Shown here piece by piece: positions 3,295 through 40,241 of a DNA stretch of 44,528 bases. Source of the DNA: Clostridia bacterium. GTDB lineage: Bacteria; Bacillota; Clostridia; Christensenellales; Borkfalkiaceae. The translations under genes were made by a program, and so were the position numbers. The notes beneath the pieces were generated by a model. It ran no database searches and had not been told where the DNA came from. It saw nothing but the letters and a program-made list of their open reading frames with translations. Every line of letters begins with the position of its first letter. The stretch's first letter is position 1. The DNA lies in the NCBI GenBank assembly GCA_017466825.1, contig JAFTTJ010000021.1, positions 1-44,528 on the forward strand. Direction: 5' to 3'.

Positions 3295-3298
3295 CAAT

Positions 3299-5398: not shown

Positions 5399-5409
5399 GG
5401 AGAAAATAT

Positions 5410-5514: not shown

Positions 5515-5530
5515 AAAAGGGGTAACGAAC

Positions 5531-8500
5531 ATGAAAAAAAGTTTAATCAAAAAGAGTTTAATGTGGATTTTATCCGCGCTCGCTTTCATTTCTCTTTCTT
5601 GCTTTACCTTTTTTACGGTAGGCAAACCTTTAACTGCTAGAGCAAGCGCTTGGCAAGAGGGCGAATTTGTAGTAGAAGACGGCGTTTCTCTCAAATACGG
5701 ACAGGAAATGGCAAACGGCGGCGGTATGCGTTTTATCATTAAAATGGGAAAGTCGGTTTACGACGCCCTTTTAGAAGATGAAAACGCAGTATTCGGCGTG
5801 GTAATCGCTCCTAAGCAATTGATGCTTGACGCAAACGGCGATTATTTAAATATGCCTAAAAAAGTCGGCGGAGTAATTGGTAAAGAAAGAATTTATCAAT
5901 TAGAAGGCGCTGATGAAAATTATTACTTTGCTAACGCTTGTATTACGAATATTAAAGTTGCTAATTTAGAGCGCGATTTCGTAGCCGTCGCTTACATACA
6001 AAACGGTAACGAAGTGCGTTATACCGACTATAACGACGACGCTCGTGGCGATTTATACGATCTCGTCAATAGGGCAATGCTCGGCGGTTACGCTGAAGAA
6101 ATTGCTTTGAGTACGGTTAAAGGTGGCGACAGCGCGTACTTGCAAGTTGCAGAAAATAACGGTTGGTACGGCTCTACGGAGTATCCTATCGTAGTCGAAA
6201 CGGACGAAGAAGTCAATACAATTGAAACAATTGCGGCAAGCCAAGATTTATCGTATTGTAACGTCGTCCTTAAAGATACCGTTACTCAAGCGCCTTCGCT
6301 TGACGGCGTAGAAGATCCTACGGTTGTTTTTGAAGACGTTTACGAAATAAATCAACTTATTGTAGGACTTCCCGATAGCTTAACCATGCCCGAAGGCATT
6401 GGCGTAATCGGTAGAATAAGACAAGTTGAAAAATTATACAACGCCCTTTCGGACGTGAAAAAGAATAGCGTTGAAAACTATGCAAAACTCGAAGGTCTTT
6501 TATCGGCAATCGAAGGCTACGACAGAGTTTATTCGCACGGCGCAAACGACGGAACGGTAATACCTTCTTACGTGCCTAATTACACGTCGACTATCGGCGG
6601 TACTGCAACCACCTATCAAGACGACGTTTACGGCAACGTATTAAAGGTTACATCGGATGAAGGCGGAAAAGCGGCTTTAAATATCACTAATTTCCCCAAC
6701 GTAAGAGATTACACTACGATTTATTTCTACGTAAGGGGAATAGGCGTTGCTACCGAGAGCGAACCCGGATCTAACGTCTATTGGTCGGACGGTATAACTA
6801 ACGATGGTTGGGGTGCAAACGAAAAAAACAACTGGAGTAACGCTTTTTGGACTAACGAAGCAAATTTCCGTCTTGTAGAAATCAACGTTGCCGACGGGTA
6901 TATCGGTACAGAGTTTGCTTTAGGATTTAGAACTAACAACACGGACTTTACCTTTGAAATTTCAGATTTTTACGGTATAAAAGCACCTCACGTCGAAACG
7001 ACGCTCACTTTTGGTACTCAAACTGACACGGGCGAAACGAACGAAAATGGAAAGGTTTATAATATTAGCCGTGAACAATGGTATATAGATAATAACAATA
7101 CCAACACTATCGGTACTTTGCAAACGAATAAACTTGCAAACGCCCTTCCTTCAGGAAAAGAATACTTCTATTTCTGGATGTATAACGGCACGGGCACGGA
7201 ATACAACTTCCATTTGGCAGGCGACGTAAGCGGTACGTGGACGGATTCTAAGGATTCTACGGCGTTAAAAGTTGGCGAATGGACTAAGGTTACCATTTCG
7301 GCAGAAGATATTGAATCTAACAAAAACGGACAATGGTACGTTTATATTTTAGGTGGTGACGGACAAGGCGCTGAAAAAGACGGTTGGAAGATTTCACCCA
7401 TTTACGCAGGTCCTGCCGCTGAAAAAGGTTATATCGACCACGCCGACGTTAAAAACGTTATTGCGCTTATAAACGCTTTACCCCAAACGATAACTTTATC
7501 AGATAAATCGGCTATTGAAGACGTTCGCTTGGCATACGACAGTCTTATAGACGTTCAAAAATCGTCGGTTACAAACCTTTCGCAACTTGAAAGCGCGGAA
7601 GCAACTATTATAGATATTGAAAGTGCAAACGTCGTTATTTCTTTGATTGACGATATAACTTCCGTTGATGATACGGCGTTGATTGAAAACGCTCGCACGG
7701 GGTACGACGCCCTTTCCGATAGCGCAAAGACTTACGTAACCAACTATCAAATTTTGCTTGATTACGAAGAAGAAATTGCAACGGCAAATGCGTTGATTTC
7801 TGCTGTTAACAGCCTTAACAGCACAATTGCAAGTTTGCCTGATAGCGTAGTAATGCCCGATAACCTTGTATTCGTTTCGAGAATAGAAAAAGCTAGAGAC
7901 GATTACGACGCCCTTCCTGACGAAGGTAAGAACATGGTTGAAAATTACGCTAAACTTCGTAGTTTACTCTCAAATATTAAGGGCTATACTACCGTTTACC
8001 GTCAATCGGTGGACGGCGTAAACGTAATCCCGTCGCACGTGCCTAATAACACGTCTACTATCGGCGGTACGGCTACTATGGGTTACGACGCTTATTACGG
8101 CGACTACTTAATAGCAACGCCAAGTAGTGGCGGTAAAGTTTCTATTCAGTTTAAAAACTTCCCCGACGTAAGCAAATACGCAAAGATTTACTTTAATATC
8201 AGAGTAGTGGGCGCGTCTTGCGATATCTACCTTTCGGACGGTATAACCAACGACGGTTGGGGCGACGATTGGCACAACACTTGGTCAATGGACGGTTTTT
8301 GGACTAATGACGGCAACTGGATTCAAAAGGAAATAGCCGTTTCTACGGGAATATTTACTTCAAACTGGGCGTTAGGTCTTAAGAAGAATGATACGGATGC
8401 TATGAACGTCTCGTTTGAAATTACTGATATAGTTGCTTGGGCGCCCGACCTTGGCACTAATTCGGGCTTGACTTTTGGTAATTTCTCGGACAGCGGTACT

Positions 8501-10891: not shown

Positions 10892-10907
10892 CAACAAAAT
10901 ACACTAG

Positions 10908-10950
10908 GTTAGCCTGCCTATATCCAAAACGGATTATAGGCAGGGCTACC
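10908..10950 (+). other. Strong intergenic hairpin without a U-run
   Basis: The arms GGTTAGCCTGCCTATATCC and GGATTATAGGCAGGGCTACC pair almost perfectly around AAAAC. No run of T follows (CTTAAAAACC), so it is not a normal intrinsic terminator. Its place between the DUF4838 gene and the next surface gene suggests an mRNA 3'-end stabiliser or a partial attenuator. Confidence 0.65.
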
Positions 10951-10979
10951 TTAAAAACCAAACTTATTTGGAGATTTAA

Positions 10980-13979
10980 ATGAAGATTAAACTTTTAATT
11001 TTGTCAGCGGTTTTATCTCTCGCGCTCGCCTTTGGCTTTGCCTGTGGCGAAACGAGTGAAAGCGTAGAGTCAAGCCCGCCGACGGAATCTACGGGTATAA
11101 TCGAAAGCGAAGGCTCGCCTATTATATCCTTAAATCAAAACAAAGTTAAAATTTGCATTGGTGAAAAATTTACACTTTCGGCAACGGCAAAAAATATCTC
11201 AAACGCCGAGTTTACTTGGTCGCTTGACGGCGATAGTAGCGCGGACGTGATTTCTTTTGAGCAGAAGGGAAACGACCTTTTAATTACCCCTTTAAAGTTG
11301 GGTAAAGTAAAACTCGTGGCAACCCTTACCGTAGACGGAATAGTTTATTTTGAGAGCGCCGAAGTCGAAGTCGTTGAAAAAAATAACGTCGCTATCGTAT
11401 TAAGCGACGTCGGTTTTGACGACGACGGATATTTCGTTGAACTGTCTACCTTGGCGGAAGACGGGCATATTAGCCAAATGACCGCGCCACTTATAAGCGT
11501 GTACGTCGACAATAAAATCAATAACGGCGTTACCCCCGTGTGGACGAGCGCAGACGAAAGCGTTTTATCCGTTTCAGACAATATGTTTAAGGCTTTAAAA
11601 GAAGGCGAAACGGTAGCAACCGTAACTTGCGAAATCGCAGGTAAAACCTATTCGACAAGCGTAAAAGCGCGCGTTTATCGCCCCCAAATAGCCTTGGATG
11701 AAAAATTTACGATTGAAGTCGAAAATTTATCCGACTCATACGCGGTCAGCGCTAACGTAAAGGGCGGAACTGCAAAAGTTACCTATCAAGGCAATGAGAT
11801 TGGCAGTTACGATTTCCAAAGAAAAGAAATAGTTTTCAATAAAAAAAGCCTTCCCTTTACGGCAAAAAATATGGGTGAAAACCGTGAAATTTTAATTGAA
11901 ACGGATAAAGCGAGTTATTCTTTAAGCGTAGATTTTTACACTAAAATTATTACGACTAAAGAAGAGTTTAACGCTATGGCAACCCTTGCTAAAAACGCTT
12001 GTCCTAAGCAAGATAATTTGTGGGACGGATATTTCGTGCTCGGCGCGGATATCGAATACGACGGCGTTTATAAATCTAGACTTGCCGATTTAGACTCTTT
12101 GTGGGCGGCGGTTGGCGAAACGTGGTCAAACGGCGTTATGAACGGTTTTAAAGGCGTTTTTGACGGAAAAGGTCATCAAATCGACGGCGTTGAAATCGAC
12201 AACGGCAAGGAAGTAGGCGGAGTTTTCGGCGTGCTCAACGTCGAAGGTTTAATTAAAAACGTTTCGTTTACAAACGCAAGCGTTTCTGCAAACGCTTCGC
12301 TAGTTTGTTCTACGGGCGCAGGCTCTATCGAAAATATTTACGTTTCGTTTAAGTCTATGGGCAAAGGCGTTCAAAGATATGAAGGCGACGGCTCTATCAG
12401 TAACCATTGTTCGGCGTTTTTCGGCTATAAAGAGCCTACTTTAACCGCAAACGCAACCAACTGCGTAATCGACGTTACTAACGCTAAAATAGATAAGTCG
12501 GCGTCTATAAAGGCCGTCGGTAGCGAGCACGTAACTTATAAAAACGTATTCGTTATAGGCGGTAGTTACGAGTTAAGGGCTAAATCTAACGCAACGATGT
12601 CTTTCGGCTCTATTGCCGAATTCGTTGAAGACGCTACCGCTCAAAGTCGTTATAAAAAATTCGATACGAGTCCTAGCGGACTTTGGTCGGGCGTTGGCGG
12701 TGTTCCCGTTTCAAAAAGCGTATATAATAACTTAAAAGACGACGTCGTTGAGTTTAACGCAAGCGAATCGGCTACGGTTACAAGTTTAGTGGTCGGCACG
12801 CAGTATAAATTTAAATTGACTAGTCCTTACGCAGTCGTAACGTCAAATAGCGAGCACGTAACCGTAGAAGCGGGCGTTGCAACTATTCTTCCCTCCGCAA
12901 CCCAAGGCGAGAGCGTTACCTTTACCGCAACTTCGCTGTTTAACGGAAGCGAAAAGACGTTTACTTGTTCCATTGTAAAATTCGATCTTGAAGCGGATCG
13001 CCTTGATTTGACGACGGAAGAAGAAAACCCCGACGGCTATAACGCGTTTTACGATATTACTGTAGATAAAGTTTACTTTGCGGAACTTAGCGACAAGGTT
13101 TCGGCAAAAGATATTTTATATTACGTAAACGAAGATTACACTTACGTAACCTATCTCGACGACGGCAAAGATACGAAAAAAGTTATCGGTGTTGCAAAGG
13201 ATAAACTTTATCTTTTCAACTGCCAAAGCGTAACTAAAGTTATTTCCGAAAAAGAAGATTTACACTATATTAGGCGTGATTATACTGTTCAAGTTGGTTC
13301 TATACAAGGTATGTACGACGGCGTAATCGTAGGTACTTACGTCCTTATAAACGATATCGACTGCACGGGCTTAACCTTGAAAAACACGGGTACTTTCTAT
13401 GAAAATAGCAGGGGATTCGGCGGTGTTTTCGACGGAAGAAATTACACTATTAAAAACTTAACCGTCGGCGCAAACGGACTTTTCGGCGTTTTGTGTAACG
13501 GTACTATAAAGGACGTAAATTTTGAAAACGTCTACCTTAAAGCGTCCAACAAAGAAGGCAACGATGGTTCTTACGTAGCCCTTTTCGCTGCTAGCGTTTA
13601 TAACAGTACGTTTAGCAACGTAACAATGCACTTCGCGTCTTACGTTGAAGGTAATACTTTATACCACACTAGCGGACTTATGTTCTACGAAAAGAGTTTT
13701 GATAGCACCTTTACGGATATCGAAATTGATATTTCGGACGTAACGGGCGTTAAATATCTTACCGAACTTTATTACGACCAAACCTTAACGGGTACGTCTA
13801 AGGAAAAGTCGGTTTATAAAAACGTAATAGTTTACGTTAATGATATAAAAAATAAACCCGTATTCGCTTACAACTATAAGGCGGTCGAAACGGCAACTAA
13901 CCCCGACGAGTTGATAAAAGCCGAAGAGTACCCCGAAGGTATTACTTTCATTGAAAAAAAGGCGGATGATAACAAATGA
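10980..13979 (+). CDS. Putative lipoprotein with Big_2-like and GLUG-like beta-helix regions
   Basis: A 999-residue exported protein. Residues 1-22 form a signal peptide ending GFAC, a weak lipobox, so lipid attachment at Cys22 is likely but not certain. A Ser/Glu-rich linker follows (about 24-45). Residues about 46-135 and 150-228 look like Big_2 Ig-like domains (SLNQNKVKICIGEKFTLSATA; TPVWTSADESVLSV). Residues about 320-480 and 765-960 contain GLUG-type strings (GFKGVFDGKGHQIDGVEI; GFGGVFDGRNYTIKNLTV...GLFGVL), often found in surface adhesins and glycan-binding proteins. No catalytic motif is recognised. It is preceded by TTGGAG and overlaps the next gene by 4 bp (ATGA), so the two are translationally coupled. 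Confidence 0.75.
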   Translation: MKIKLLILSAVLSLALAFGFACGETSESVESSPPTESTGIIESEGSPIISLNQNKVKICIGEKFTLSATAKNISNAEFTWSLDGDSSADVISFEQKGNDLLITPLKLGKVKLVATLTVDGIVYFESAEVEVVEKNNVAIVLSDVGFDDDGYFVELSTLAEDGHISQMTAPLISVYVDNKINNGVTPVWTSADESVLSVSDNMFKALKEGETVATVTCEIAGKTYSTSVKARVYRPQIALDEKFTIEVENLSDSYAVSANVKGGTAKVTYQGNEIGSYDFQRKEIVFNKKSLPFTAKNMGENREILIETDKASYSLSVDFYTKIITTKEEFNAMATLAKNACPKQDNLWDGYFVLGADIEYDGVYKSRLADLDSLWAAVGETWSNGVMNGFKGVFDGKGHQIDGVEIDNGKEVGGVFGVLNVEGLIKNVSFTNASVSANASLVCSTGAGSIENIYVSFKSMGKGVQRYEGDGSISNHCSAFFGYKEPTLTANATNCVIDVTNAKIDKSASIKAVGSEHVTYKNVFVIGGSYELRAKSNATMSFGSIAEFVEDATAQSRYKKFDTSPSGLWSGVGGVPVSKSVYNNLKDDVVEFNASESATVTSLVVGTQYKFKLTSPYAVVTSNSEHVTVEAGVATILPSATQGESVTFTATSLFNGSEKTFTCSIVKFDLEADRLDLTTEEENPDGYNAFYDITVDKVYFAELSDKVSAKDILYYVNEDYTYVTYLDDGKDTKKVIGVAKDKLYLFNCQSVTKVISEKEDLHYIRRDYTVQVGSIQGMYDGVIVGTYVLINDIDCTGLTLKNTGTFYENSRGFGGVFDGRNYTIKNLTVGANGLFGVLCNGTIKDVNFENVYLKASNKEGNDGSYVALFAASVYNSTFSNVTMHFASYVEGNTLYHTSGLMFYEKSFDSTFTDIEIDISDVTGVKYLTELYYDQTLTGTSKEKSVYKNVIVYVNDIKNKPVFAYNYKAVETATNPDELIKAEEYPEGITFIEKKADDNK

Positions 13980-18006: not shown

Positions 18007-21000
18007 ATGATTATTCCTAACGTAGAAGAGAGAATTGAAAAAGTCGTGAGTTTGCTTAGCGGTTGGCGACTGGTAAAAAAAGAGTTTTTGCCCGTGTTAT
18101 ATACCGACGAAGTAGTAGACAAACAAGTTTTGCCAACCTGTTTTTCGGGCTGGAAAACTTTTGACGCGCCGTATACCATTTACGAGCAAGATAAATATTT
18201 TTGGTTTAAGGCAAGTTTTACAATAAAAAGGCAAAACCACGACCAAAAAGCATATTTTTATTTAGATACGGGCATAGATCCCCGTTTCGTTTCGTCCACT
18301 ATCCGTCCGCAAGGGCTACTGTATTTAAACGGCAAACTTATTCAAGGCGTGGATATCAACCACGGCGACGTCTTACTTGAAGACGGAGATTACGAAGCAT
18401 ACTTACTTTTCTATTCTCACACCTTTATAAAACAGTTGACCTTAGATTTTTCCGTTCGATACGAAGACGAAAAAATTAGCGCTCTCTACTACGATTTATC
18501 CGTTGCTTTTCAAGGTTTAAAATTGCTTGCATTAAACTCAAACGAGCGTATGGAAAGCCTTGCGGTTATTGAAAAAACTCTCAATCTTTTAGATTTTAGA
18601 AAGCCCTATTCGGCAGAGTTTTATTCTTCAATCTCGCTCGCTCGCGAGTTTTTTAAGGAAAATTATTACGATAAACTGTGCGGTAGCAGATATACCGTAA
18701 ACTTAATAGGTCACACTCATATCGACGTCGCTTGGATGTGGGATTTATGCCAAACTAAGCAAAAGGTCGAGAGAAGTTTTGCAACCGTTTTAAAACTTAT
18801 GGACGAATATCCTGAGTATAGGTTCTTTATGTCCCAGCCCCAACTTTTCGACTTTTTAAAAGAGCGCAACCCCGAACTTTACGCAAGGGTTAAAGAAAAG
18901 ATTTTACAAGGCAGATGGGAAGTAGACGGCTCAATGTGGCTTGAAGCCGACTGCAATTTAACTAGCGGGGAAAGTTTAACCCGTCAAATACTCTTCGGTA
19001 AAAAATTCTTTAAAGAAGAGTTTAACGTAGACTGTAAAACGGTATGGCTACCCGACGTATTCGGTTACTCGGCGTCCTTACCGCAAATAATGAAAAAGAG
19101 CGGTGTTGAAAATTTCATAACCGCAAAAATCGGTTGGAACGACGTAAACCGCATGCCCTACGACGCTTTTATTTGGCGTGGCATTGACGGTAGCGAAGTG
19201 TTCGCTTACTTTTTATCTACTTGCGAGTGTAATCCAAGGGCGGGCGTGTTCGACCAAACTTACACCACGTACACCGCGCCAATAAATCCCATGTACGTTT
19301 TGGGTACTTGGAATAGATTTCAACAAAAGGAATACACCGACACCGTAATTATGAGTTACGGTTGGGGTGACGGCGGTGGTGGTCCTACCAGAGAAGATTT
19401 AGAAGTTCAAAAAAGGCTTGAAAAGGGGCTTCCGGGTATTCCTAACGCCAAAATCGAGTCTTTAAACAAGTCTATTTCAACTATCAAAGACAATTTCTTT
19501 AAAAATTCAAAGTCTTTAGCCCGCGTGCCTACTTGGAATGGCGAACTTTACTTTGAATATCACCGCGGTACGCTAACAAGCGTTCCTAGGGTAAAAATGA
19601 ATAATAGAAAGGGTGAATTTGCCCTTTTAAACGCAGAGTTTTTCGGCTCGATTGCAAATATTCTTTGCAAAAAAGATTATCCTAAAACTCTTCTCGACGA
19701 AAATTGGAAATTACTGCTCCTTAACCAATTCCACGATATTTTACCAGGCTCGTCCATAGCCGACGTATACAAGGATAGTCGGGAGCAATTCGATATAATA
19801 TTTAGTCAAACTGCGGGCGTTGTAGACGGCGGAATTTCCACCCTTTCAAACGCTATTAAAACCGACGGTGGGCTTATGGTGTTTAACCCCAACGGCTTTA
19901 CCGCAAGCGGAACGGTTCTTGTAGGCGGAAAAACCCGTATCGTGGAAGATATCCCCGCGCTTGGCTATAAGGTAGTAAATTTGAGCGAGCAAAAGACCGC
20001 CGTAAAAGTTGGCGATAAGGTTTTAGAAAACAGTTATTATAAAATCACCTTTAACCAATCGGGCGCGATCACTTCGCTCTTTGACAAAACTGCAAAGAGA
20101 GAACTCGTAAAAAGCGGTAGGGTTTTAAACGAGTTTAAATGTTATCAAGACACCCCTTATCAGTACGACAACTGGGAGATGACTCCCTACCATTTCCAAA
20201 ACGTTTGGGCGGTTGATAGCCCTGCTGAGTTTGAGTCTATCTTTGACGGCGATAGAGCGGGCTTCATCATCAAAAAGCCTTATATAAGTTCGTTAATCAC
20301 ACAAAAAGTGTTTTTATACGAAGACGGAATCGACAGAATAGACTTCGTAACCGACGTCGATTGGAAGGAGAAAAATCAACTTTTAAAGGTTTTATTCCCC
20401 TTTGATTTGACTGCGGATAAAGCGAGATTTGACGTTCAGTTCGGGCACGTTGAAAGGGCTATACACTCAAACACTAGTTGGGATAGCGCTAGGTTTGAAT
20501 CGGCGGGACAAAAATGGGTTGACCTTTCCGAAAACGATTACGGTGTTGCGCTTTTAAACGACGGAAAGTACGGCTTCGGCTCTTTAGACGGCGAACTTTC
20601 AATGACGGTATTAAAGTCGGGCGGTTTCCCATTTGACGGCGCAAGCGACGATATTCCCACCTTTACGTATTCGATTTTACCCCACCAAGGTCAGGGTGTA
20701 AACGGCGGAATAGTCGAAAAATCTTACCTTTTGAATAGACCGTTATTCGGGGTTGAAATCGCTAAAAACGACGGCGGCATTTTACCTGCAGAGTTCTCTG
20801 CGATTGATTGCCAAACTAAGGGCGTTATCTTTGAAACTTTAAAACTCAGCGAATCGGGCGACGGATATATTGCTCGCGCATACGAAGCGTACAAGGAAAG
20901 AAAGGTCGTTACCTTAGCCCTTCCAAACGCAAAAAGAGTCGCTATATGCGATTTAAGCGAAAACGAAATAGAAAACTTAACCGTAAACGGTGGAAAAGTT

Positions 21001-21051
21001 CAATTTACTATCAAACCGTTTGAAATAATAACATTAAAAATAACTCTTTAA
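18007..21051 (+). CDS. Alpha-mannosidase, glycoside hydrolase family 38
   Basis: A 1014-residue GH38 enzyme, which removes alpha-mannose from mannosyl glycans with a retaining mechanism and one zinc ion. Family signatures are clear: GHTHIDVAWMWD near residues 235-246 (His and Asp metal ligands), SQPQLFDFLKE, GSMWLEADCNLTSGESL, WLPDVFGYSASLPQIM near 345-360 (nucleophile Asp near 348), SYGWGDGGGGPT, and NQFHDILPGSSI near 573 (metal-ligand His). The C-terminal half is the usual beta domain. There is no signal peptide, so it is probably cytoplasmic, trimming imported oligosaccharides. Length matches bacterial GH38 proteins of about 1000 residues. It starts 157 bp after the surface-protein cluster and only 2 bp separate it from the next gene. 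Linkage preference cannot be read from sequence. Confidence 0.95.
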   Translation: MIIPNVEERIEKVVSLLSGWRLVKKEFLPVLYTDEVVDKQVLPTCFSGWKTFDAPYTIYEQDKYFWFKASFTIKRQNHDQKAYFYLDTGIDPRFVSSTIRPQGLLYLNGKLIQGVDINHGDVLLEDGDYEAYLLFYSHTFIKQLTLDFSVRYEDEKISALYYDLSVAFQGLKLLALNSNERMESLAVIEKTLNLLDFRKPYSAEFYSSISLAREFFKENYYDKLCGSRYTVNLIGHTHIDVAWMWDLCQTKQKVERSFATVLKLMDEYPEYRFFMSQPQLFDFLKERNPELYARVKEKILQGRWEVDGSMWLEADCNLTSGESLTRQILFGKKFFKEEFNVDCKTVWLPDVFGYSASLPQIMKKSGVENFITAKIGWNDVNRMPYDAFIWRGIDGSEVFAYFLSTCECNPRAGVFDQTYTTYTAPINPMYVLGTWNRFQQKEYTDTVIMSYGWGDGGGGPTREDLEVQKRLEKGLPGIPNAKIESLNKSISTIKDNFFKNSKSLARVPTWNGELYFEYHRGTLTSVPRVKMNNRKGEFALLNAEFFGSIANILCKKDYPKTLLDENWKLLLLNQFHDILPGSSIADVYKDSREQFDIIFSQTAGVVDGGISTLSNAIKTDGGLMVFNPNGFTASGTVLVGGKTRIVEDIPALGYKVVNLSEQKTAVKVGDKVLENSYYKITFNQSGAITSLFDKTAKRELVKSGRVLNEFKCYQDTPYQYDNWEMTPYHFQNVWAVDSPAEFESIFDGDRAGFIIKKPYISSLITQKVFLYEDGIDRIDFVTDVDWKEKNQLLKVLFPFDLTADKARFDVQFGHVERAIHSNTSWDSARFESAGQKWVDLSENDYGVALLNDGKYGFGSLDGELSMTVLKSGGFPFDGASDDIPTFTYSILPHQGQGVNGGIVEKSYLLNRPLFGVEIAKNDGGILPAEFSAIDCQTKGVIFETLKLSESGDGYIARAYEAYKERKVVTLALPNAKRVAICDLSENEIENLTVNGGKVQFTIKPFEIITLKITL

Positions 21052-21053
21052 AT

Positions 21054-23153
21054 ATGGAAACGTTTACTTTAAACGAGCGTTCCGTTGCAATCGACTTTGA
21101 AAGGGGAGTAATCGCTAAAATTATTAGTGGCGACGAGCAGTTAAACTGTGGTTTTGCCCCCTTGTTTTCGGTCAAGATGAGAGATAGAATTGGTAAAAGT
21201 AGGGTAATTGAGTCTACTAAATGCCAATTCGAGTCTTTTAGCGACGGCGTTGCTCGTTACACTTTTGAACAATTTAATATACAAGTTTTGGTTGCCGTAA
21301 ACGGCGACGGACTAAGGCTACGCGCAAACGTTCAAAATAAAACTGCGGATTTACTTGAATGGATTGAACTCGCGTCTTTTTCGGTGTGTGAAAAATTAGG
21401 CGGTGAAGAAGGCGGAAAGGGTGAAATTATCTATCCCTACAACGAAGGTTGCATAGTCAATAATATGGCGTACAGAGAGAGTATGCCTTTTAAGTACGTT
21501 GAGCCCGATTACCCTAGCAAAAACAGTTTTTCAATTTTTCCCAATATGGTATTCGCGCAGTTTATTGCTTATAAATGCGATAAAACGGGCGTATATTTAG
21601 GTATGCACGACTGTGAAAGAACGACTAAACACGTCGATTTTTGCTATTATCAAGGCGGAATAAAGGTGTTTATGCGCGCCTTTTGCGACCTTTCTTACGG
21701 TGAAGATTATCAGATGCCGTTTGACTGCGTTTTGCAGTTTTTTGACGGAGATTGGTACGAAGCCGTCGATATTTATTACGATTGGTTTAGTAAAAATTTG
21801 CCCCAAAATCTTAAAAAAATAGGGCAAAACGAAAGTCTTCCTACTTGGCATGCTCAATCGCCGCTAATCGTTGCATATCCTTTAAGGGGCGAGTTTGATG
21901 CGGATATAACGCCAAACGGACTATATCCTTACGAAAACGCTTTGCCGATTTTGGATGAAATCGCTCAAAATACCGACAGTAAGGTTATGGCTTTGCTTAT
22001 GCATTGGGAAGGTTCTGCGCCGTGGGCGCCACCCTATTCTTGGCCACCCTACGGCGGAGAGAACGAGTTTAAAAACTTCGTCGATAAAATACATAATAAG
22101 GGCAATTTAATAGGTCTTTATACGAGCGGTTTTGGTTGGACAAGCAAGAGTTTAGTCGACGAAAATTACAAAAAAACCGACGAGTATGAAAGTTTAAAAA
22201 TAAGTCAAGCCGTATGCGCAAATTCTGATGGCAAAATAGAGAGCAGGATATGTACCGCTCAAAGGGAAGGGGTTGATTTTTGCCCCGCTCACCCCTTGAC
22301 GAAAGCGATTTTTAAGCAGGAATTTGATAAAATTTGCGCTAGCGGAATAGATTATCTTCAAGCGCTTGACCAAAACCACGGCGGAAACTCGTATTTTTGT
22401 TATAGCGACTCGCACGGGCATCCGCCCGCGCCGGGTAAGTGGCAACAAAAGGAAGTAAATTCCCTTCTTTCATCAATAGAAAAACGCGGTGTGGTTTTGG
22501 GTGCTGAATCGTCCGCCGCCGAGCCGTTTATAAGTCAAATTGCGTTTAGCGATAACCGTTACGAACTCAATTATTATCTCGGCGAGCCCGTTCCGATTTA
22601 CGCATATATTTATCACGAATACGTAAACAATTTTATGGGCAACCAAATTTGCGCAATGCTTGAAAAAAAGCCAAACAACTTTACTTATAGGCTTGCGTAC
22701 TCGTTTATTGCGGGTGATATGCTCACCGTCGTTATAAACGGCAAGGGCGAACTTTTATACGCTTGGTGCGATTACGTCGAACCAAAGGAACAAACGGTAG
22801 ATAAAAGCACGGCTTTAAACTTTATCAAAACCTTAAACGCTTGGCGAAATAAAGGTGGTAAAAAGTTTTTGCGCGGCGGCAAAATGATAAAACCTATTTG
22901 CATAAAAACCGATAAACAAAGTTTCTTGCTTGAAGACGGAAAGACTTATTTAACCCCCAATTCGGTTTTAACTTCCGCGTATAGTTTTGGCGGTGAAAGA
23001 GCGCAGTTTTTAGTAAACTACAACCTTGCGCCTATGGAAGTCGAACTTGAATCGCCTTGTGACGCATACTTTGACGTAGACTTAAAAATTTGCAAAAAGT
23101 CGGTCAATAGGTTGATTATCGAGCCTTTATCCGTGGTAATGCTAAAAATTTAA
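21054..23153 (+). CDS. DUF6259-like putative glycoside hydrolase
   Basis: A 699-residue protein, cytoplasmic as no signal peptide is seen. Residues about 1-260 are beta-rich with the string KTGVYLGMHDCERTTKH and GDWYEAVDIYYDWF, which I associate with DUF6259. Residues about 265-560 look like a TIM barrel: LIVAYPLRG, MALLMHWEGSAPWAPPYSWPP, NLIGLYTSGFGWTS, DYLQALDQNHGGNSYFC, GVVLGAESSAAEPF. The Asp in LQALDQN and the Glu in GAESS are on strand ends and could be catalytic; this is inference. The C-terminal about 600-699 is a beta domain (FLVNYNLAPMEVELE). It lies 2 bp behind the GH38 gene and is followed by a terminator, so the two form the end of an operon and probably act on the same glycan. 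Confidence 0.7.
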   Translation: METFTLNERSVAIDFERGVIAKIISGDEQLNCGFAPLFSVKMRDRIGKSRVIESTKCQFESFSDGVARYTFEQFNIQVLVAVNGDGLRLRANVQNKTADLLEWIELASFSVCEKLGGEEGGKGEIIYPYNEGCIVNNMAYRESMPFKYVEPDYPSKNSFSIFPNMVFAQFIAYKCDKTGVYLGMHDCERTTKHVDFCYYQGGIKVFMRAFCDLSYGEDYQMPFDCVLQFFDGDWYEAVDIYYDWFSKNLPQNLKKIGQNESLPTWHAQSPLIVAYPLRGEFDADITPNGLYPYENALPILDEIAQNTDSKVMALLMHWEGSAPWAPPYSWPPYGGENEFKNFVDKIHNKGNLIGLYTSGFGWTSKSLVDENYKKTDEYESLKISQAVCANSDGKIESRICTAQREGVDFCPAHPLTKAIFKQEFDKICASGIDYLQALDQNHGGNSYFCYSDSHGHPPAPGKWQQKEVNSLLSSIEKRGVVLGAESSAAEPFISQIAFSDNRYELNYYLGEPVPIYAYIYHEYVNNFMGNQICAMLEKKPNNFTYRLAYSFIAGDMLTVVINGKGELLYAWCDYVEPKEQTVDKSTALNFIKTLNAWRNKGGKKFLRGGKMIKPICIKTDKQSFLLEDGKTYLTPNSVLTSAYSFGGERAQFLVNYNLAPMEVELESPCDAYFDVDLKICKKSVNRLIIEPLSVVMLKI

Positions 23154-34810: not shown

Positions 34811-35545
34811 ATGATACTTGATCACAGTTTTCCAAGAGAGATTAAATACGTTCAAGATAAAAATATTCCGCTCGTAATAGTCGGCGGAACTGTTGAATAT
34901 CACGGCCCACATTGCAGTTACGGATGCGATACGTTAGTTGCCGAAGGTCTTGCAAAAAAACTTGCCGAGCAAAAGGAAATTATGCTTGCGCCAACTATTT
35001 CGTACAGCCCGTCAAGTTACGCCGTCGGCGGAAGAAAAAGCGGAACGGTCCACGTGCCCGAAAGGGCTTTTGAAGACTACGTTTATTACGTTTTCAAGAG
35101 TATGCTCTATTCGGGGTTTAGAAATATTTACGTGCTTATACATCACCAATTCGAGCAGGAGAGCGAAATGCCTATGACTCTTTGTTACCGCACGGCGGCA
35201 AAGAGAGCGACTATGGAATATTTAGAAGAAACTCTCGGCGAAGGTTGGTGGGGTAGTGAAAACTACGCAAACTACTACGAGCAACTCGAAGGCGCAAATA
35301 ACCCCTTCAACTGGATAAAAGTTATACCTACTATGTCAACCGAAGTACAAAACGCTACGGGTTACGACCACGCGGGAAAATACGAATGCTCGATACTTAT
35401 GTCCCTTTATCCCGATTGTGTTAAAAAGGAAAGAATAGACGACGTAAAGCATTGGTTTACCGAGAGCGCGAGAGATGCAAACAAGGAACTCGGCGACGAA
35501 ATGGTTGCAAAATCTTTAGAATACCTTAAAGGAGCGATTAAATAA
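34811..35545 (+). CDS. Creatininase-family metal amidohydrolase
   Basis: A 244-residue member of the creatininase family (cyclic amide and lactam/lactone hydrolases with two metals). VGGTVEYHGPHCSYGCD gives ligands Glu29, His31 and Asp40. The segment LIHHQFEQES (about 109-118) aligns with NGHYENS of creatininase and keeps the Glu (Glu115), while the His is shifted or replaced (HHQ). The C-terminal GYDHAGKYECSILMS is also family-like. The family includes creatininase, MftE and an inosose-ring hydrolase (IolN); with an oxidoreductase before it, a ring-opening step on an oxidised cyclitol is one idea. It starts after AAAGGAG and its stop codon overlaps the next ATG (TAATG). Confidence 0.88.
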   Translation: MILDHSFPREIKYVQDKNIPLVIVGGTVEYHGPHCSYGCDTLVAEGLAKKLAEQKEIMLAPTISYSPSSYAVGGRKSGTVHVPERAFEDYVYYVFKSMLYSGFRNIYVLIHHQFEQESEMPMTLCYRTAAKRATMEYLEETLGEGWWGSENYANYYEQLEGANNPFNWIKVIPTMSTEVQNATGYDHAGKYECSILMSLYPDCVKKERIDDVKHWFTESARDANKELGDEMVAKSLEYLKGAIK

Positions 35546-37662
35546 TGTTGCCCCCTATAAAACGGGTAAAACTGCCCGAAAACAATTTTCCCACTTTGTG
35601 GCAAACGGTTATTTTTAGAAACTACGCAAGGGTGTCTACGGATAAAATCGCAAGGGTTTTAGGCTGTGATGAAAAGGTAGTAATAAGCGAAGCGACAAGG
35701 CTTGGTCTAGGCTCGCAACAGTACGACGAAAATTGGGAAAAGTTGGGCTATATATCGATTATTCGTGATAATTGGGTGTTGTTGCCCTATGAACAACTGC
35801 TTGTTTTGTTGGGTTATACCGAGCAGGAGTTAGAGTTTATTTTACAAAACGAAGACTTTTTGGCGGTAAAACTCGGCAATTTTAAACCGCAGGTTGAAAG
35901 GGTTGAGTATGCACCGCTTACTAGCGAGCAAATTTTAAAAACTCAAGATATTGCAAAAATTGTAACTGAAAGCGTTTGCCCAAGAAGGGTAAAACCCTTT
36001 GATTTTTTCAGCGACGCAACGCAAAATGATTTGACGATAGTAAATCGAAACGGAACTAGGCTCGTTCACGGTTACTTAACTCCGTGTGGCGACGTCTTTA
36101 TGCAAGACGACGAATATTATATGCCCGATAGGCTTTTGCAAGAGTATTCTTCAAAGGGTATAAACGCCGTTTGGGTGCACGCTCTTTTATCTACGCTAAG
36201 CCCGTATCCCTTTGATAAAGATTGTAGCAAAGATTATCAAAAGCGTCGCTATAAGTTGATTAACTTAGTAAAAAGGTGCAAAAAGTACGGCGTAAAAGTG
36301 TACCTTTACTTAAACGAACCTAGGGGTATTCCCGTAGAAAAATTGGGTAAATTTACTCATCTTGCGGGTAGAGTTGAAAACGGCATTGCAAATCTTTGTA
36401 TTGAAAATAGCGAAGTGCAAGACTATCTATATAGCGCCGTAAAAGACCTTTTCGACGAAGTACCCGACCTTGGTGGAGCGCTTACTATCACCATGAGTGA
36501 AAATCCCACCCATTGCAATTACGTTCCGGGCAATAATTGTCCTAAGTGTAAGGATATCCCCGCTTATCTTTCGGCGGTTAAAGTCAATAATATAATAATG
36601 CAGGCGGTCAAAGATAGTCGTTCAAACGGTGAAGTGATTGCAAACCTTTGGGGTTGGTCTTCGTTTATGGGTTGGACGGACGAGCAAGCGATTAAGGGTA
36701 TTGACCTTTTGGATAAAGATATTTCCGTCTTATGCGTAAGCGAGTACGATTTAGATATTGAAAAAGGCGGTGTAAAAAGTAGAATTATCGACTATTCTAT
36801 TTCCAACCCCGGTCCCGGTGAAATTGCCAAAAACGCCCTTGCTCACGCTAGGAAAAACGGGCATAAAATCTACGCAAAAATACAAATTAACAACAGTTGG
36901 GAATGCTCGGCTTGCCCCTATCTTCCCGTTTTCGATTTGACTTACGAGCATATTGAAAATCTTTCAAAAATCGGCGTTGAAAACCTCATGCTCACGTGGA
37001 CGCAGGGCGGATACCCGTCCCCAACGATGGATATGATTGCTGATTTTATCGACCAAAAGGAAGATTTTTCGCTCGAAAAGTGGTACTTAAAGACTTTTGG
37101 CGAAAACGCAAAAAGCGTAAAAACTGCGGTTGAAAGTTTTTGCAACGGGTTCAGAGAATATCCGTTCAGCATACAGGGTTTATATATGTCGCCAAAGACG
37201 TTGGGGCTTGCCAATCTTTGGGACAAGTCGCCTAGCGAAAAGGCTTCGACGATGGTTTGTTACGCCTACGACGACTATGAAACTTGGATTTCGCCCTACC
37301 CCTACGAAGTGTATATTTCGCAATATGAAAAACTGCTTGCAAGTTGGGAAAAGGGCATAGAGATTTTAAAGAAAACACCTAAAAATCGACTTATAGACGA
37401 ACTTTTGACCTATGCCGATGTGGCGTATAGCCATTTTATAGCCGACAAATTGCAAACTGAATACGCAATGGAAAAACGCAAAGGAAATAAAAATAGAATA
37501 GGCGAAATTTTGCAAGTTGAAAAAGATCTTTGCAAAAAATTGATTCCGCTTATCTCGTCGTCTTCGCTCGTTGGGTTTGAAACGTCAAATCACTATTTCT
37601 ATTCGGAAAGAAACGTAATCGAAAAAATTGTCAACGTAGAAAGGCTAATTGAAGAGAATTAA
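35545..37662 (+). CDS. Unclassified 705-residue protein, HTH-like N-terminus and glycosidase-like barrel
   Basis: I do not recognise a named family. Residues about 18-60 (LWQTVIFRNYARVSTDKIARVLGCDEKVVISEATRLGLG) look like a helix-turn-helix. Residues about 195-520 have the strand pattern of a TIM-barrel glycosidase: GINAVWVHALLSTLSP, GVKVYLYLNEPRGIP, GGALTITMSENPTHCNYVPGNNCPKC, GEVIANLWGWSSFMG, IYAKIQINNSWECSACPYLPVF and VENLMLTWTQGGYPSPTMD. The Cys pair NCPKC after TITMSEN recalls the DUF4838 block with its C.C motif, so distant kinship to GH20/GH163-type barrels is possible. No signal peptide, so cytoplasmic. It is translationally coupled to the creatininase-family gene. Codons 612-620 contain a copy of the dispersed motif. 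An inverted repeat begins 4 bp after its stop codon. Confidence 0.65.
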   Translation: MLPPIKRVKLPENNFPTLWQTVIFRNYARVSTDKIARVLGCDEKVVISEATRLGLGSQQYDENWEKLGYISIIRDNWVLLPYEQLLVLLGYTEQELEFILQNEDFLAVKLGNFKPQVERVEYAPLTSEQILKTQDIAKIVTESVCPRRVKPFDFFSDATQNDLTIVNRNGTRLVHGYLTPCGDVFMQDDEYYMPDRLLQEYSSKGINAVWVHALLSTLSPYPFDKDCSKDYQKRRYKLINLVKRCKKYGVKVYLYLNEPRGIPVEKLGKFTHLAGRVENGIANLCIENSEVQDYLYSAVKDLFDEVPDLGGALTITMSENPTHCNYVPGNNCPKCKDIPAYLSAVKVNNIIMQAVKDSRSNGEVIANLWGWSSFMGWTDEQAIKGIDLLDKDISVLCVSEYDLDIEKGGVKSRIIDYSISNPGPGEIAKNALAHARKNGHKIYAKIQINNSWECSACPYLPVFDLTYEHIENLSKIGVENLMLTWTQGGYPSPTMDMIADFIDQKEDFSLEKWYLKTFGENAKSVKTAVESFCNGFREYPFSIQGLYMSPKTLGLANLWDKSPSEKASTMVCYAYDDYETWISPYPYEVYISQYEKLLASWEKGIEILKKTPKNRLIDELLTYADVAYSHFIADKLQTEYAMEKRKGNKNRIGEILQVEKDLCKKLIPLISSSSLVGFETSNHYFYSERNVIEKIVNVERLIEEN
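37379..37399 (+). repeat. Dispersed motif copy 4, inside a coding sequence
   Basis: CTAAAAATCGACTTATAGAC is identical over 20 bases to the intergenic copy at 42001-42020. Here it encodes PKNRLID within the 705-residue protein. Confidence 0.88.
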
Positions 37663-37666
37663 ACTT

Positions 37667-37712
37667 AAAAACGCAGGTTTAGTCACTAATTTTTGAAACC
37701 AGTGTAATAATT
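37667..37712 (+). repeat. Left inverted repeat of the cassette
   Basis: AAAAACGCAGGTT, then 11 diverged bases, then TTTGAAACCAGTGTAATAAT. The reverse complement of 39686-39732 matches the outer 13 bases exactly and the inner 22 with one mismatch. Confidence 0.85.
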
Positions 37713-37713
37713 T

Positions 37714-37745
37714 AGAGAATTAGAAAAATCTAATTCTCTTTTTTT
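37714..37745 (+). terminator. Terminator just inside the left inverted repeat
   Basis: AGAGAATTAG and CTAATTCTCT pair around AAAAAT, followed by a run of seven T. It would stop transcripts from the 33094-37662 operon before they enter the cassette antisense. Confidence 0.88.
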
Positions 37746-37768
37746 ACTGGCTGCTTTATTTAGTTTAT

Positions 37769-37828
37769 AGGCGTGTGCTTGTCTGTTCGAGCGAAGCGAG
37801 AACACTTGTATATGACAAGCACACGCCT
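37769..37828. other. Long two-part hairpin downstream of the ABC permease
   Basis: GGCGTGTGCTTGTC and GACAAGCACACGCC form a perfect 14-bp stem. Inside are TGTTC/GAACA and the near-palindrome CGAGCGAAGCGAG. It is the most G/C-rich piece of the cassette and lies 20 bp past the permease stop codon, so it may end or protect the ABC mRNA. Confidence 0.8.
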
Positions 37829-37848
37829 AACTGCCATTATAATATTTT

Positions 37849-38631
37849 TTATTTATCACTTACTATATTGTTCTTAAATGCAATAATAGTCAATATTATG
37901 CTAGAAATCATAAACAGACTTATAGTAATTAAACCCAAGCCAGCAACATTATTAAAAGAATAAGTAATTCCTAATGCATTTTTTGAATTTGTAATTATTC
38001 TACCAATGTAAACTGATGGGTAAAATGGTAAAAATCTGCAAAAAGTTTCAAAACCACCCATTGTTTCAATCGGCATCCAACAACCACCAAGTATTCCAGC
38101 TAAACTTATAAACACAGAACAAATACCTGGTGCGGATTTATCATTAAATATAGTTCCAAACAATATTCCTAAAAAGATATTTGTGATAAGTATTGGTAAT
38201 TGAGTAATAATTAAAAGCAAAATATTTCCAATAGATACAAAGCCAATATTAGATATCAGAGAAATTATAAACCCAGTAATAACACAAACCAATGTTTGTA
38301 ATAACCCGATAAACAAACCAACAAGAAAATATCCTAATATAAAATGATATGATTTCATTGGAGAAGAATATAATCTTTTTAAGAAAAATGTTTGTTTGTC
38401 TTTTGATACGATAATAGCAAGAGTTAACATAACAAAAGAATAAGAAAACACAATAATTCCAGGAAGTAAAGATAATATTTCAAAAGTAGGAGTATGCCCA
38501 CTTGAAAACTTGTTGATTATATAAAACAAAAAAAACATTGCAATTGGAAACCCTAAACAAAAAATATATATGATTGGGTCTCTTAAAATTTCTTTTAAGT
38601 TTCTTTTATAAAAATTTATAACCTTATTCAT
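37849..38631 (-). CDS. ABC-2 type transporter permease
   Basis: A 260-residue integral membrane protein with about six hydrophobic segments. The start NFYKRNLKEILRDPIIYIFCLGFPIAMFFLFYIIN and the later PGICSVFISLAGILGGCWMPIETM are typical of ABC-2 permeases used for drug, lipid or peptide export. Its start overlaps the ATPase stop by 8 bp, so they are coupled. Codon use is A/T-rich with almost no CG dinucleotides, unlike the flanking genes. Export substrate cannot be told. Confidence 0.88.
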   Translation of the reverse strand: MNKVINFYKRNLKEILRDPIIYIFCLGFPIAMFFLFYIINKFSSGHTPTFEILSLLPGIIVFSYSFVMLTLAIIVSKDKQTFFLKRLYSSPMKSYHFILGYFLVGLFIGLLQTLVCVITGFIISLISNIGFVSIGNILLLIITQLPILITNIFLGILFGTIFNDKSAPGICSVFISLAGILGGCWMPIETMGGFETFCRFLPFYPSVYIGRIITNSKNALGITYSFNNVAGLGLITISLFMISSIILTIIAFKNNIVSDK

Positions 38632-39343
38632 TCTTTGCCTCCACCAACTTTATAAAAGCATCTTCAAAGTTTTGTGTGTTGGTTATTTGCTTTATTTCTT
38701 CAATAGTTCCTGTTTTAAGTAATTTGCCATTTGATAATATTGCAACTCTATCACACAAATTTTCTATTTCTTCTAAATAGTGTGAAGTTAATATAATCGT
38801 AATATTTTTTTGTAGTTTCTTTATAATATTCCATAGTTCACGCCTAGCAAAAACATCTAAACCAAGCGTTGGCTCATCAAGAAATAAAATTTTTGGTTTT
38901 GAAATTAGAGCAATTGCAATAGATAATCTTCTTTTATAGCCACCAGATAAAGTTTTGGCTCTTTGATTTAACACTTCATTTAGATTAAAAATATCTACAA
39001 TTTCATTTATTGTATTAGCATCATTATAGTTGTATATATTTGCAAAAAATTCTAAATTTTCTTTTACAGTTAAGTTGTTTGCCACTGATGTTTCTTGAGG
39101 TGATATATCAATTATTTCTTTGATTTTATCAATCTCTTTATCTAAATTAAAATCATTTATCGTTATTGTTCCACTTGTTTTTCTTGTTAAACCACAAAGA
39201 ATTTTAATTAGAGTTGTCTTCCCTGCACCATTTACGCCTAAAAGTCCAAACAATTCACCTTGTTTTATTGATAAAGAAACTTTGTCTAATGCCTTTTTTG
39301 TCTTATAGTTTTTGCAAACATTGTCAATCTTTATAATATTCAT
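38624..39343 (-). CDS. ABC transporter ATP-binding protein
   Basis: A 239-residue ATPase. Walker A GVNGAGKTTLIK, Q-loop DISPQETSV, signature LSGGYKRRLSIAI, Walker B ILFLDEPTLGLD and the switch His in ILTSHYLEEIE are all intact. It matches the CcmA/DrrA-type exporters paired with ABC-2 permeases. Ribosome site AAGGAG lies just before ATG. It follows the AbrB-like gene by 13 bp on the same strand and is likely controlled by it. Confidence 0.93.
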   Translation of the reverse strand: MNIIKIDNVCKNYKTKKALDKVSLSIKQGELFGLLGVNGAGKTTLIKILCGLTRKTSGTITINDFNLDKEIDKIKEIIDISPQETSVANNLTVKENLEFFANIYNYNDANTINEIVDIFNLNEVLNQRAKTLSGGYKRRLSIAIALISKPKILFLDEPTLGLDVFARRELWNIIKKLQKNITIILTSHYLEEIENLCDRVAILSNGKLLKTGTIEEIKQITNTQNFEDAFIKLVEAKNE

Positions 39344-39356
39344 ACAATAAAACTCC

Positions 39357-39566
39357 TTATGGTTTTAATACTTTATCTGTTAAACTATCAATAACATCTG
39401 CCTTTAATAGAGCAATACCTTTTTCTTTATCACAAAGAACAATAACAGAATCTCCTGGATTTATGTCAAACATAGTTCTTATTTCTTTTGGTATAACAAT
39501 TTGTCCTTTTTCACCTACTTTGCAAATTCCAACAAATTTGTTTTTATCAGTTTTATTTTTTTTCAT
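39357..39566 (-). CDS. AbrB/SpoVT-family DNA-binding protein
   Basis: A 69-residue protein from ATG 39564-39566, 6 bases after AAGGAG; a TTG two codons upstream touches the ribosome site and is rejected. The swapped-hairpin AbrB fold is clear: GICKVGEKGQIVIPKEIRTMFDINPGDSVIVLCDKEKGIALLKAD. Genes of this kind often head small ABC transporter operons and act as their repressor or transition-state regulator. Three repeats at its own promoter suggest autoregulation. Composition matches the ABC genes, not the host-like neighbours. Confidence 0.9.
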   Translation of the reverse strand: MKKNKTDKNKFVGICKVGEKGQIVIPKEIRTMFDINPGDSVIVLCDKEKGIALLKADVIDSLTDKVLKP

Positions 39567-39593
39567 ATCCAACTCCTTTTCGTATGATAAGTT

Positions 39594-39637
39594 ATACTTT
39601 TCATACTTATTATACTTTTGTAATAAGTATTTGTCAA
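39594..39637 (-). promoter_or_regulatory. Cassette promoter with three 9-bp-spaced AAGTAT repeats
   Basis: On the - strand: TTGACA (39632-39637), a 17-base spacer and TATAAT (39609-39614), a full consensus. AAGTAT occurs three times with an exact 9-bp period (39612-39617, 39603-39608, 39594-39599), overlapping the -10 and the start site, so a repressor bound here would block transcription. Confidence 0.8.
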
Positions 39638-39646
39638 CCGAATAAC

Positions 39647-39685
39647 AAAAAAAACACCTTATTTATTATGATAAAGTGTTTTTAT
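39647..39685. terminator. Terminator just inside the right inverted repeat
   Basis: AACACCTTAT and ATAAAGTGTT pair with one mismatch around TTATTATG. T-rich sequence follows on the + side (TTTTATAATT) and a run of A precedes it, so it can work both ways. It mirrors the left-hand terminator. Confidence 0.75.
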
Positions 39686-39732
39686 AATTATTACACTAGT
39701 TTCAAACGGGATAACCCTTAACCTGCGTTTTT
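39686..39732 (-). repeat. Right inverted repeat of the cassette
   Basis: Reads as the reverse complement of the left end: AATTATTACACTAGTTTCAA on the inner side and AACCTGCGTTTTT on the outer side. Confidence 0.85.
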
Positions 39733-39763
39733 TATTTCGTTGACAAAAACATTGCTAAAATTG

Positions 39764-39802
39764 TTGAAAACTATGTAAAATTATGATATATTTATATCAT
39801 AA
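39764..39802 (+). promoter_or_regulatory. Promoter of the MraZ-like gene with a 22-bp palindrome at the -10
   Basis: TTGAAA (39764-39769), a 17-base spacer and TATATT (39787-39792). The -10 sits in a perfect inverted repeat, arms TTATGATATA and TATATCATAA around TT (39781-39802), a likely repressor operator. A consensus TTGACA at 39740-39745 has no good partner -10. Confidence 0.7.
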
Positions 39803-39863
39803 AAGCGTTTTGCGTGTAAAAGCGCAAAGGACTGACTTTTAAATTAAGAGAGAGAAAATAAAT

Positions 39864-40241
39864 ATGGAATTTACGTTTTCAGGCTCGTTTAAAATTGAAA
39901 GCGACGGTAAAAATAGGTACAAAGTACCTGTGTGTTGGCTAAAGGGTTTTACCGAACCGCTCTTTATTTACCCATACCACAACGGCAATTATATGATATC
40001 TAGCCTTGCAAAGGTAAGGCATTTTTTAAAAGGGCTTAGAGAAAGTATCGACCCTGATTTTATAAGGCTTTATTCCTTCGTTGCGAGTAAGATTTACGAA
40101 ATTTCCTTGGACGGCGAAGGTAGGATTTTTCTACCTAGTTTTAAAGGCGCAATAACCTTGACGGGTAGGGGAGATTGTGTTGAAGTTATAACTGATAATG
40201 AAAAAGGGGAAGAAGGCAATGACGAAACCTACGTCACCTAA
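39864..40241 (+). CDS. MraZ-like (double AbrB fold) protein, orphan
   Basis: A 125-residue protein with two half-repeats like those of MraZ: FSGSFKIESDGKNRYKVPVCWLKGF...LFIYPYHNGNYMIS at the start, and YEISLDGEGRIFLPSFKGAITLTGRGDCVEVIT at the end; the D..GRI.LP core of the second half is well kept. MraZ normally heads the division/cell-wall (dcw) cluster and represses it. Here the next gene is a beta-propeller-like membrane protein, so this is a diverged paralogue, perhaps a local regulator. The start of the next gene lies inside its last 23 bases. Confidence 0.65.
   Translation: MEFTFSGSFKIESDGKNRYKVPVCWLKGFTEPLFIYPYHNGNYMISSLAKVRHFLKGLRESIDPDFIRLYSFVASKIYEISLDGEGRIFLPSFKGAITLTGRGDCVEVITDNEKGEEGNDETYVT

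Follow-up and report, generated by a model that had tools for sequence, protein, structure and literature searches.

The DNA analyzed here is a 44,528-nt stretch of a Clostridia bacterium (assembly GCA_017466825.1, contig JAFTTJ010000021.1), called the window throughout. It represents contig C17 of the genome G000, whose assembly is 84% complete; loci, genomes and contigs are labeled L###, G### and C##. Behind a host gene for a protein of 705 amino acids (aa; 35545–37662), the window carries a small cassette with an ABC exporter, enclosed by inverted repeats and by a terminator inside each end. The left arm (AAAAACGCAGGTT, 37667–37679, + strand) starts 4 nt past the stop codon of the 705-aa gene, as the initial annotation of this DNA had stated and as was read directly. 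It is followed on the same strand by the core and spacer of the A end (TAGTCACTAATT, 37680–37691), the left 21-bp inverted repeat (TTTGAAACYAGTGTAATAATT, 37692–37712) and an element-borne inner terminator (37714–37746) with a hairpin at 37714–37739 and a T-run. A conserved hairpin (AGGCGTGTGCTTGTC...GACAAGCACACGCCT, 37768–37829, without assigned strand) marks the boundary between backbone and cargo.

The cargo genes are all located on the − strand and encode a 260-aa ABC-2 type permease (37849–38631, PF01061), a 239-aa ABC transporter ATPase (38624–39343, PF00005) and a 71-aa MazE/AbrB-type DNA-binding protein (39357–39572, PF04014), in agreement with the AbrB-type regulator and ATPase/permease pair described before. 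Upstream of the three genes, a promoter-like TTGACA-17-TATAAT (39609–39637, −) matches the consensus at 12 of 12 positions, a match of letters only. The right inner terminator (39650–39684, −), likewise element-borne, was identified by eye from a hairpin at approximately 39654–39679 and a T-run when read inward; the terminator scan that listed its left counterpart had missed it. Further outward follow the right 21-bp inverted repeat (TTTGAAACYAGTGTAATAATT, 39686–39706, −), the core and spacer of the B end (inward TAAGGGTTATCCCG, 39707–39720, −) and the right arm (AAAAACGCAGGTT, 39720–39732, −). The crossover is presumed to lie at the TA dinucleotides 37680–37681 and 39719–39720.

Between both sides, the outer repeat is exact (13/13), as claimed initially, and the inner repeat agrees at 20 of 21 positions. 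The earlier description of 22 inner bases with one mismatch is thus right about the repeat and wrong about its extent, as position 22 differs as well. The segments separating outer and inner repeats do not match between left and right. The G+C content is 26.6% within 37692–39706, compared with 41.7% for the remaining window. With up to one mismatch, the end motif was found in its own genome at these two sites only, and Pfam revealed no transposase or recombinase among the three cassette genes. As an inverted repeat of 20/21 with arms at least 400 nt apart also arose in one of 300 dinucleotide shuffles of the 2.4-kb region, taken by itself the inner repeat argues only moderately against chance, and the weight of the argument rests on the family described below.

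Cassettes sharing these ends

When genome_contigs was scanned for exact copies of the end motif, 78 stretches were returned; almost all carry titles of uncultured Clostridia or similar labels, and many are from animal gut samples. Viral contigs gave no match. One of the 78, L142, falls within coding sequence and probably matches by chance, but it is still included in the AAAA count given below. A search of 396 genomes of the order for the inner repeat with up to two mismatches matched 14 genomes, compared with three for a reversed control pattern. A few of its single matches (e.g., L084 of G180) are probably due to chance, and variant ends such as those in G433 and G349 are overlooked by it.

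Opposed ends formed 51 candidate pairs, and 49 were left for the comparison of arms after removal of two duplicate loci. Seven more were then removed, namely six alternative partners in loci keeping another pair and L160, which is too short (242 bp). This resulted in 42 curated cassettes with ends 482 to 3270 bp apart. Partner choice among alternatives made use of the arms (e.g., L111), a small bias from which the 49-pair comparison is free. For folding and marker counts, the complete elements L198 and L199 were added (44 elements), and for a non-redundant set of 40, four copies of a 2,034-bp cassette were removed. Typically, an end is made up of an A-run, an arm that varies, a core (TTAGTCAC... 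in the A type, TAAGGG... in the B type), the 21-bp repeat and an inner hairpin, where the two types were set by letters alone and are wrong for a few elements (L079, L080). Among 80 exact ends, all 76 with enough upstream sequence contain AAAA at positions −34 to −15, vs 24% of random 20-mers.

The initial annotation had suggested looking for other cargo between the same ends in related genomes, and varied cargo is what the 42 cassettes contain. From all cassette open reading frames, a subset of 40 proteins was scanned with Pfam (39 from small elements, one from L199), which gave a family for 26 and none for 14. The families include phosphotransferase (APH) together with GNAT, ABC exporter, AAA, NUDIX, citrate transporter, the uracil-DNA-glycosylase superfamily, nucleoside hydrolase, endonuclease/exonuclease, a C5 methylase with an NgoFVII-like partner, short-chain dehydrogenases, metallo-hydrolases, HNH, radical SAM, arginine deiminase/decarboxylase and others, and these family names stand for functions predicted from sequence alone. 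No transposase or recombinase was present among the 39 small-element proteins. The proposal of a small mobile cassette without a transposase of its own was therefore borne out, and extended to a family with many different cargoes.

Evidence of mobility comes from the 2,034-bp cassette of L088 (2988–5021), which encodes a short tubulin/FtsZ-like protein of 243 aa, a 189-aa protein with a uracil-DNA-glycosylase match just below the Pfam cut-off, and an 82-aa protein. With L088 as reference, it is 98.5–98.7% identical from end to end in L090, L119, L139, L146 and L149. The arms differ among the five loci with both ends visible, and in L090 and L119 the left and right arms do not match each other. 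Relatives of the window cassette were found in L089, L159, L140, L130, L076, L081 and L014, with 87–97% nucleotide identity over aligned parts of 281–1914 nt, and the carriers of the last three (G376, G148 and G069) belong to other families of the order. The host 705-aa gene reaches a best identity of 66% inside the genus, with homologues in 7 of the 14 other genomes. L140 and L159 stem from one assembly, have the arm letters GATGAG in common and could represent the two parts of a single copy. The copy in L014 (G069) no longer has an end core, at up to one mismatch.

Sites without a cassette were seen as well. The place that corresponds to the L125 insertion is free of a cassette in L156 and shows a hairpin (by eye); its right flank is 76% identical by BLAST, and its left flank was matched by eye. 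At the corresponding place of L128, the L088 cassette is missing, with both flanks matched by BLAST. The further comparisons of L197 (for L146) and of L135 and L090 (for L114) are based on one matched flank. Moreover, a gene with a groEL-like end (by eye) that is common to L139 and L098 is followed by a different cassette end in each. Of the empty sites that the initial annotation had asked for, no clean one was found for the window cassette among the loci of 705-aa homologues in the genus; in G008, a hairpin without a cassette lies past the stop codon, but the neighboring gene is a different one (by eye). Taken together, the window cassette is real and mobile.

Split terminators at the insertion sites

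The initial annotation regarded the outer 13 bp and the inner repeat as one unit of 46/47 bp. This does not hold, because the outer arms are host DNA: they differ between elements and match inside one insertion. That the outer 13 bp could be element DNA was rejected, as the arms vary among copies of one cassette. When the window flanks are rejoined at the common TA, they fold into CGCAGGT-TTA-ACCTGCG between A and T runs, with 12 pairs and −15.4 kcal/mol, which explains the outer 13 bases as two halves of the terminator after the 705-aa gene. The sole further AAAAACGCAGGTT in this genome is an arm of the intact terminator AAAACGCAGGTT-TTTT-AACCTGCGTTTT at C24:58978. Likewise, the tag AAAAACGCAGG, which had been proposed as a marker of transposase ends, is host-terminator sequence and should not be sought in such ends, since the outer 13 bp belong to the host. 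A common terminator at the ends, named initially as an argument against the cassette, does account for the outer repeat and does not refute the mobility.

The same pattern was observed throughout the family. At least four non-A letters are shared between the arms of 28 of the 49 candidate pairs, in comparison to 3.7% of 2352 mismatched pairings. The rejoined flanks of the 44 elements fold with a mean of −10.4 kcal/mol (−3.4 kcal/mol for mismatched flanks), and 33 of them pass the 5th percentile of the null distribution. For the 40 non-redundant elements, the hairpins of true partners are far more stable than permuted ones (z −18), the observed mean was reached in none of 20,000 permutations, and the own partner is the best of 40 in 30 cases. 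A TA is present at the presumed crossover offset in 43 of 44 A ends. Since the arms match within insertions, differ between them, and the rejoined flanks fold, the elements split intrinsic terminators as a rule.

On inward reading, a hairpin with a T-run and a folding energy of at most −5 kcal/mol was found inside the A end of 39 of the 40 elements and inside the B end of 38, compared with 10 of 80 control segments. Due to inner terminators at both ends of nearly all 40 elements, the mirror layout of end, terminator, cargo, terminator and end, noted initially for the window alone, is a trait of the family. The inner terminators would replace the broken one and insulate the cargo.

The conserved hairpin AGGCGTGTGCTTGTC...GACAAGCACACGCCT occurs in 39 of 44 elements (3′ arm with up to three mismatches), as a rule between backbone and cargo, and it is located after the recombinase gene in both complete recombinase elements described below. 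Because of this placement, the small cassettes look like recombinase elements that have lost their interior and had cargo attached at the hairpin, and one may guess that the hairpin serves as a site of cargo exchange. In L154, approximately 360 nt inside the A end, the loop between its 16-bp arms is reversed relative to other elements, as if flipped. With E values up to 1, Rfam gave one match for 37500–39900 of the window, a sub-threshold microRNA match on this hairpin.

The proposed serine recombinase and competing explanations

Two of the loci, L113 and L158, contain an A end and, within approximately 250 nt after it, the gene of a 500-aa protein that combines Resolvase, Recombinase and zinc-ribbon domains, and the protein of L158 resembles the catalytic domain of the TP901-1 integrase. 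The L113 protein has Y where the L158 sequence YKLDRFAR has D. Both loci further contain type I restriction-modification-like genes past the recombinase (by eye), and L158 also holds a Rep protein of the ORF2/G2P type (PF23343). A search of the 396 order genomes by protein only yielded three homologues at 75–84% identity (G424, G433 and G349), all three beside a family end. At 43–55% identity, none of 27 fetched loci has the core motif and an A-run within approximately 1.5 kb on each side. Two of the elements are complete: L199 (G424) spans 4.0 kb (848–4860) with the arms AAAAAATAAGCC at both ends and encodes the recombinase, an APH-family protein and a P-loop-like protein (by eye), and L198 (G349) spans 10 kb (1447–11460) and encodes the recombinase, a protein similar to the Rep of L158 (by eye) and further genes. 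As close homologues adjoin the ends and complete elements carry it, the serine recombinase is named here as the enzyme. The window genome itself contains a distant serine recombinase with an internal stop (G000:C29:28920–30209, 37% identical to that of L158).

With a probability of roughly three in four, we consider the cassettes to be serine-recombinase elements with terminators as their attB and with mobilization in trans, and the window unit 37680–39720 as a non-autonomous member. The absence of a recombinase from its three proteins marks this unit as a non-autonomous relative of large serine recombinase elements. Insertion would proceed by conservative site-specific recombination into the loop of an intrinsic-terminator hairpin, presumably from a circular intermediate. 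The two 21-bp inverted repeats would be the halves of the element's attP. The role of attB would fall to the host terminator, whose palindrome lies between an A-run and a T-run. The outer 13-bp repeat is explained by such an insertion because it parts the arms of the terminator. With the terminators supplied just inside each end, transcription of the upstream host gene would be stopped again and the cargo insulated. The likeliest enzyme is a large serine recombinase with a TP901-1-integrase-like catalytic domain; its gene is located on larger family members that have such ends, and the enzyme would act in trans on cassettes that lost their own copy. The initial annotation is therefore confirmed in its observation and partly supported in its interpretation.

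Several results weigh against this reading. L113 and L158 were found via their ends and give no independent support for the enzyme, and L170 (55% identity) has a degenerate, end-like stretch near its recombinase, seen by eye, that the above definition does not count. No close recombinase is present in the window genome as assembled, the best match being the one at 37%; since its own genome lacks a close copy, the window cassette was probably mobilized in trans or stayed behind. Among the 14 order genomes with an end match, G424 alone also has a recombinase at 75% or more. As to the targets, 11 of the 44 sites fail the 5th percentile of the null (L071, L079, L080, L085, L090, L093, L119, L125, L138, L151 and L198), and with L198 a complete recombinase element is among these poorly fitting sites. 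At the B end, the TA is found in just 26 of 44 elements, and the cassette-free sites of L128 and L197 show no clear terminator. A joined attP with exact cores was found in none of the 396 genomes, the viral contigs or 203 loci, assemblies being mostly integrated DNA.

The lack of a close recombinase in most carriers, together with the G069 copy (L014) without a recognizable end core, would also fit cassettes that were once mobile and have since become fossils, retained through vertical descent and homologous recombination. We regard this as improbable, for one and the same cassette is nearly identical in six genomes at different arms where these are visible, and L139 and L098 differ in their cassette ends at the same place. 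The inverted ends, the varied cargo and the absence of transposases among the scanned cargo proteins could be reconciled with a miniature inverted-repeat transposable element (MITE) of a DDE transposase, with a long bipartite inverted repeat plus cargo, that prefers terminators by chance. This is quite unlikely, as the flanking bases form an inverted pair specific to each element rather than a direct duplication, and the five recombinase-bearing loci (L113, L158, L197, L198 and L199) encode a serine recombinase in each case. A DDE element was rejected on the grounds that there is no direct target duplication, with only a 2–5 nt core shared in direct orientation.

A further candidate, an RNA-guided recombinase of the IS110/IS1111 type, is raised by a noncoding stretch of approximately 170 nt near the A end (GCCGTGAAAGGTACTTGACAAGAG...CACCATGGAATAAATTAGCC, e.g., L070:3899–4080, −), which would then act as end and guide RNA together with the subterminal repeats. 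The stretch is common to small cassettes and recombinase elements, and its alignment comprises 19 sequences, 16 from small elements and those of L199, L158 and L113. The consensus fold has 22 pairs, of which five show compensatory changes, all in the three recombinase-element rows. A known RNA family was rejected, since Rfam gave no match at the gathering threshold in eight loci. The subterminal inverted repeats, the short common core, the hairpin targets and the compensatory changes in the conserved stretch would all suit such an enzyme. However, its marker is present in just 19 of 44 elements and missing from the window cassette, it also adjoins the serine recombinase gene in L113, L158 and L199, and no IS110/IS1111-type transposase is among the scanned cargo proteins, the search having covered neither the own genome nor related ones. 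Such an origin is thus very unlikely in our view. Finally, an ordinary, non-mobile operon with repeats and terminators around it by chance, for which the inner repeat of such quality in one of 300 shuffles could be cited, has practically no probability in the face of the 78 end stretches, the curated cassettes, the split-terminator statistics and the near-identical copies.

Apart from the cassette, the window holds two pairs of large, adjacent open reading frames of similar sizes at 208–5398 (1028 and 699 aa) and 18007–23153 (1014 and 699 aa), which may be duplicates.

Relation to known systems

Among the closest known systems are the elements of multi-targeting large serine recombinases, with a TndX-like subfamily included, of Durrant et al. 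2022 (PMC10083194), which share the large serine recombinase, the short core and the many targets; in one example given there, the outer parts of the target are enriched in T and A. The words ‘terminator’ and ‘hairpin’ do not occur in the main text of that paper. DUF4368 is reported for 63% of its multi-targeting clade, whereas Pfam finds none in the recombinases P0005 and P0006 of this study. Unlike those elements, most cassettes described here are without a recombinase and have their own flanking terminators. A large serine recombinase is absent from the window cassette and present in its end-sharing relatives L198 and L199, and the ends agree with hybrid attL/attR sites that derive from an attP with two half-sites in inverted orientation, with inverted 21-bp repeats, host arms outside, a short TA core and no direct target duplication. 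In titles and abstract openings of the open-licence literature, no description of terminator-targeting serine-recombinase cassettes was found.

Other elements with specific targets differ in their enzymes. Insertion sequences that target repetitive extragenic palindromic (REP) sequences (PMC1525189) have specific targets, yet a transposase of their own and of another class. This also applies to IS1111/IS110 (PMC11187229), where subterminal inverted repeats are found in IS1111. Group IIC introns (PMC7923331) insert next to a stem-loop, but are retroelements with a ribozyme and a reverse transcriptase. For the window, Rfam gave no group II intron match in 37500–39900, and none of the three cassette genes encodes a reverse transcriptase.

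If the preferred reading of terminator-targeting serine-recombinase cassettes applies, uncultured Clostridia would have a route to trade single genes cheaply by landing in the noncoding stop signal behind many genes and supplying substitutes for it. The recombinase is predicted to read terminator symmetry or A/T tracts and not a fixed sequence, and it could serve gene placement at neutral sites. For annotation, a split terminator, two inner terminators and TTTGAAACTAG ends would be the signature of such cassettes.

With regard to dif sites, we presume that the cassette ends are unlike them. The dif/pdif modules of Acinetobacter (PMC6449649) resemble the cassettes in their small size, their adaptive genes, the site-specific recombination sites at either flank and a recombinase encoded elsewhere. 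They differ in relying on the dif/Xer system, Xer being tyrosine recombinases, and in residing largely on plasmids, and the abstract does not mention the targeting of terminators.

The cassettes are also similar to those of integrons. Integron cassettes often carry one gene, are very varied in cargo and have a conserved hairpin beside the gene. Unlike these, the cassettes described here are dispersed, have two inverted ends and are related to complete elements with a serine recombinase. An attC site ends in a GTTRRRY box (PMC7923331), whereas the conserved hairpin is arranged otherwise by eye, with a GTTAGGC-like box, where present, at its start and not at its end; an attC reading was rejected accordingly. 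Tentatively, and with more doubt than confidence, the family could be seen as a serine-recombinase counterpart of the integron, in which a pool of small cassettes would move as circles in trans to terminators genome-wide, bring their own paired terminators and exchange cargo at the hairpin.

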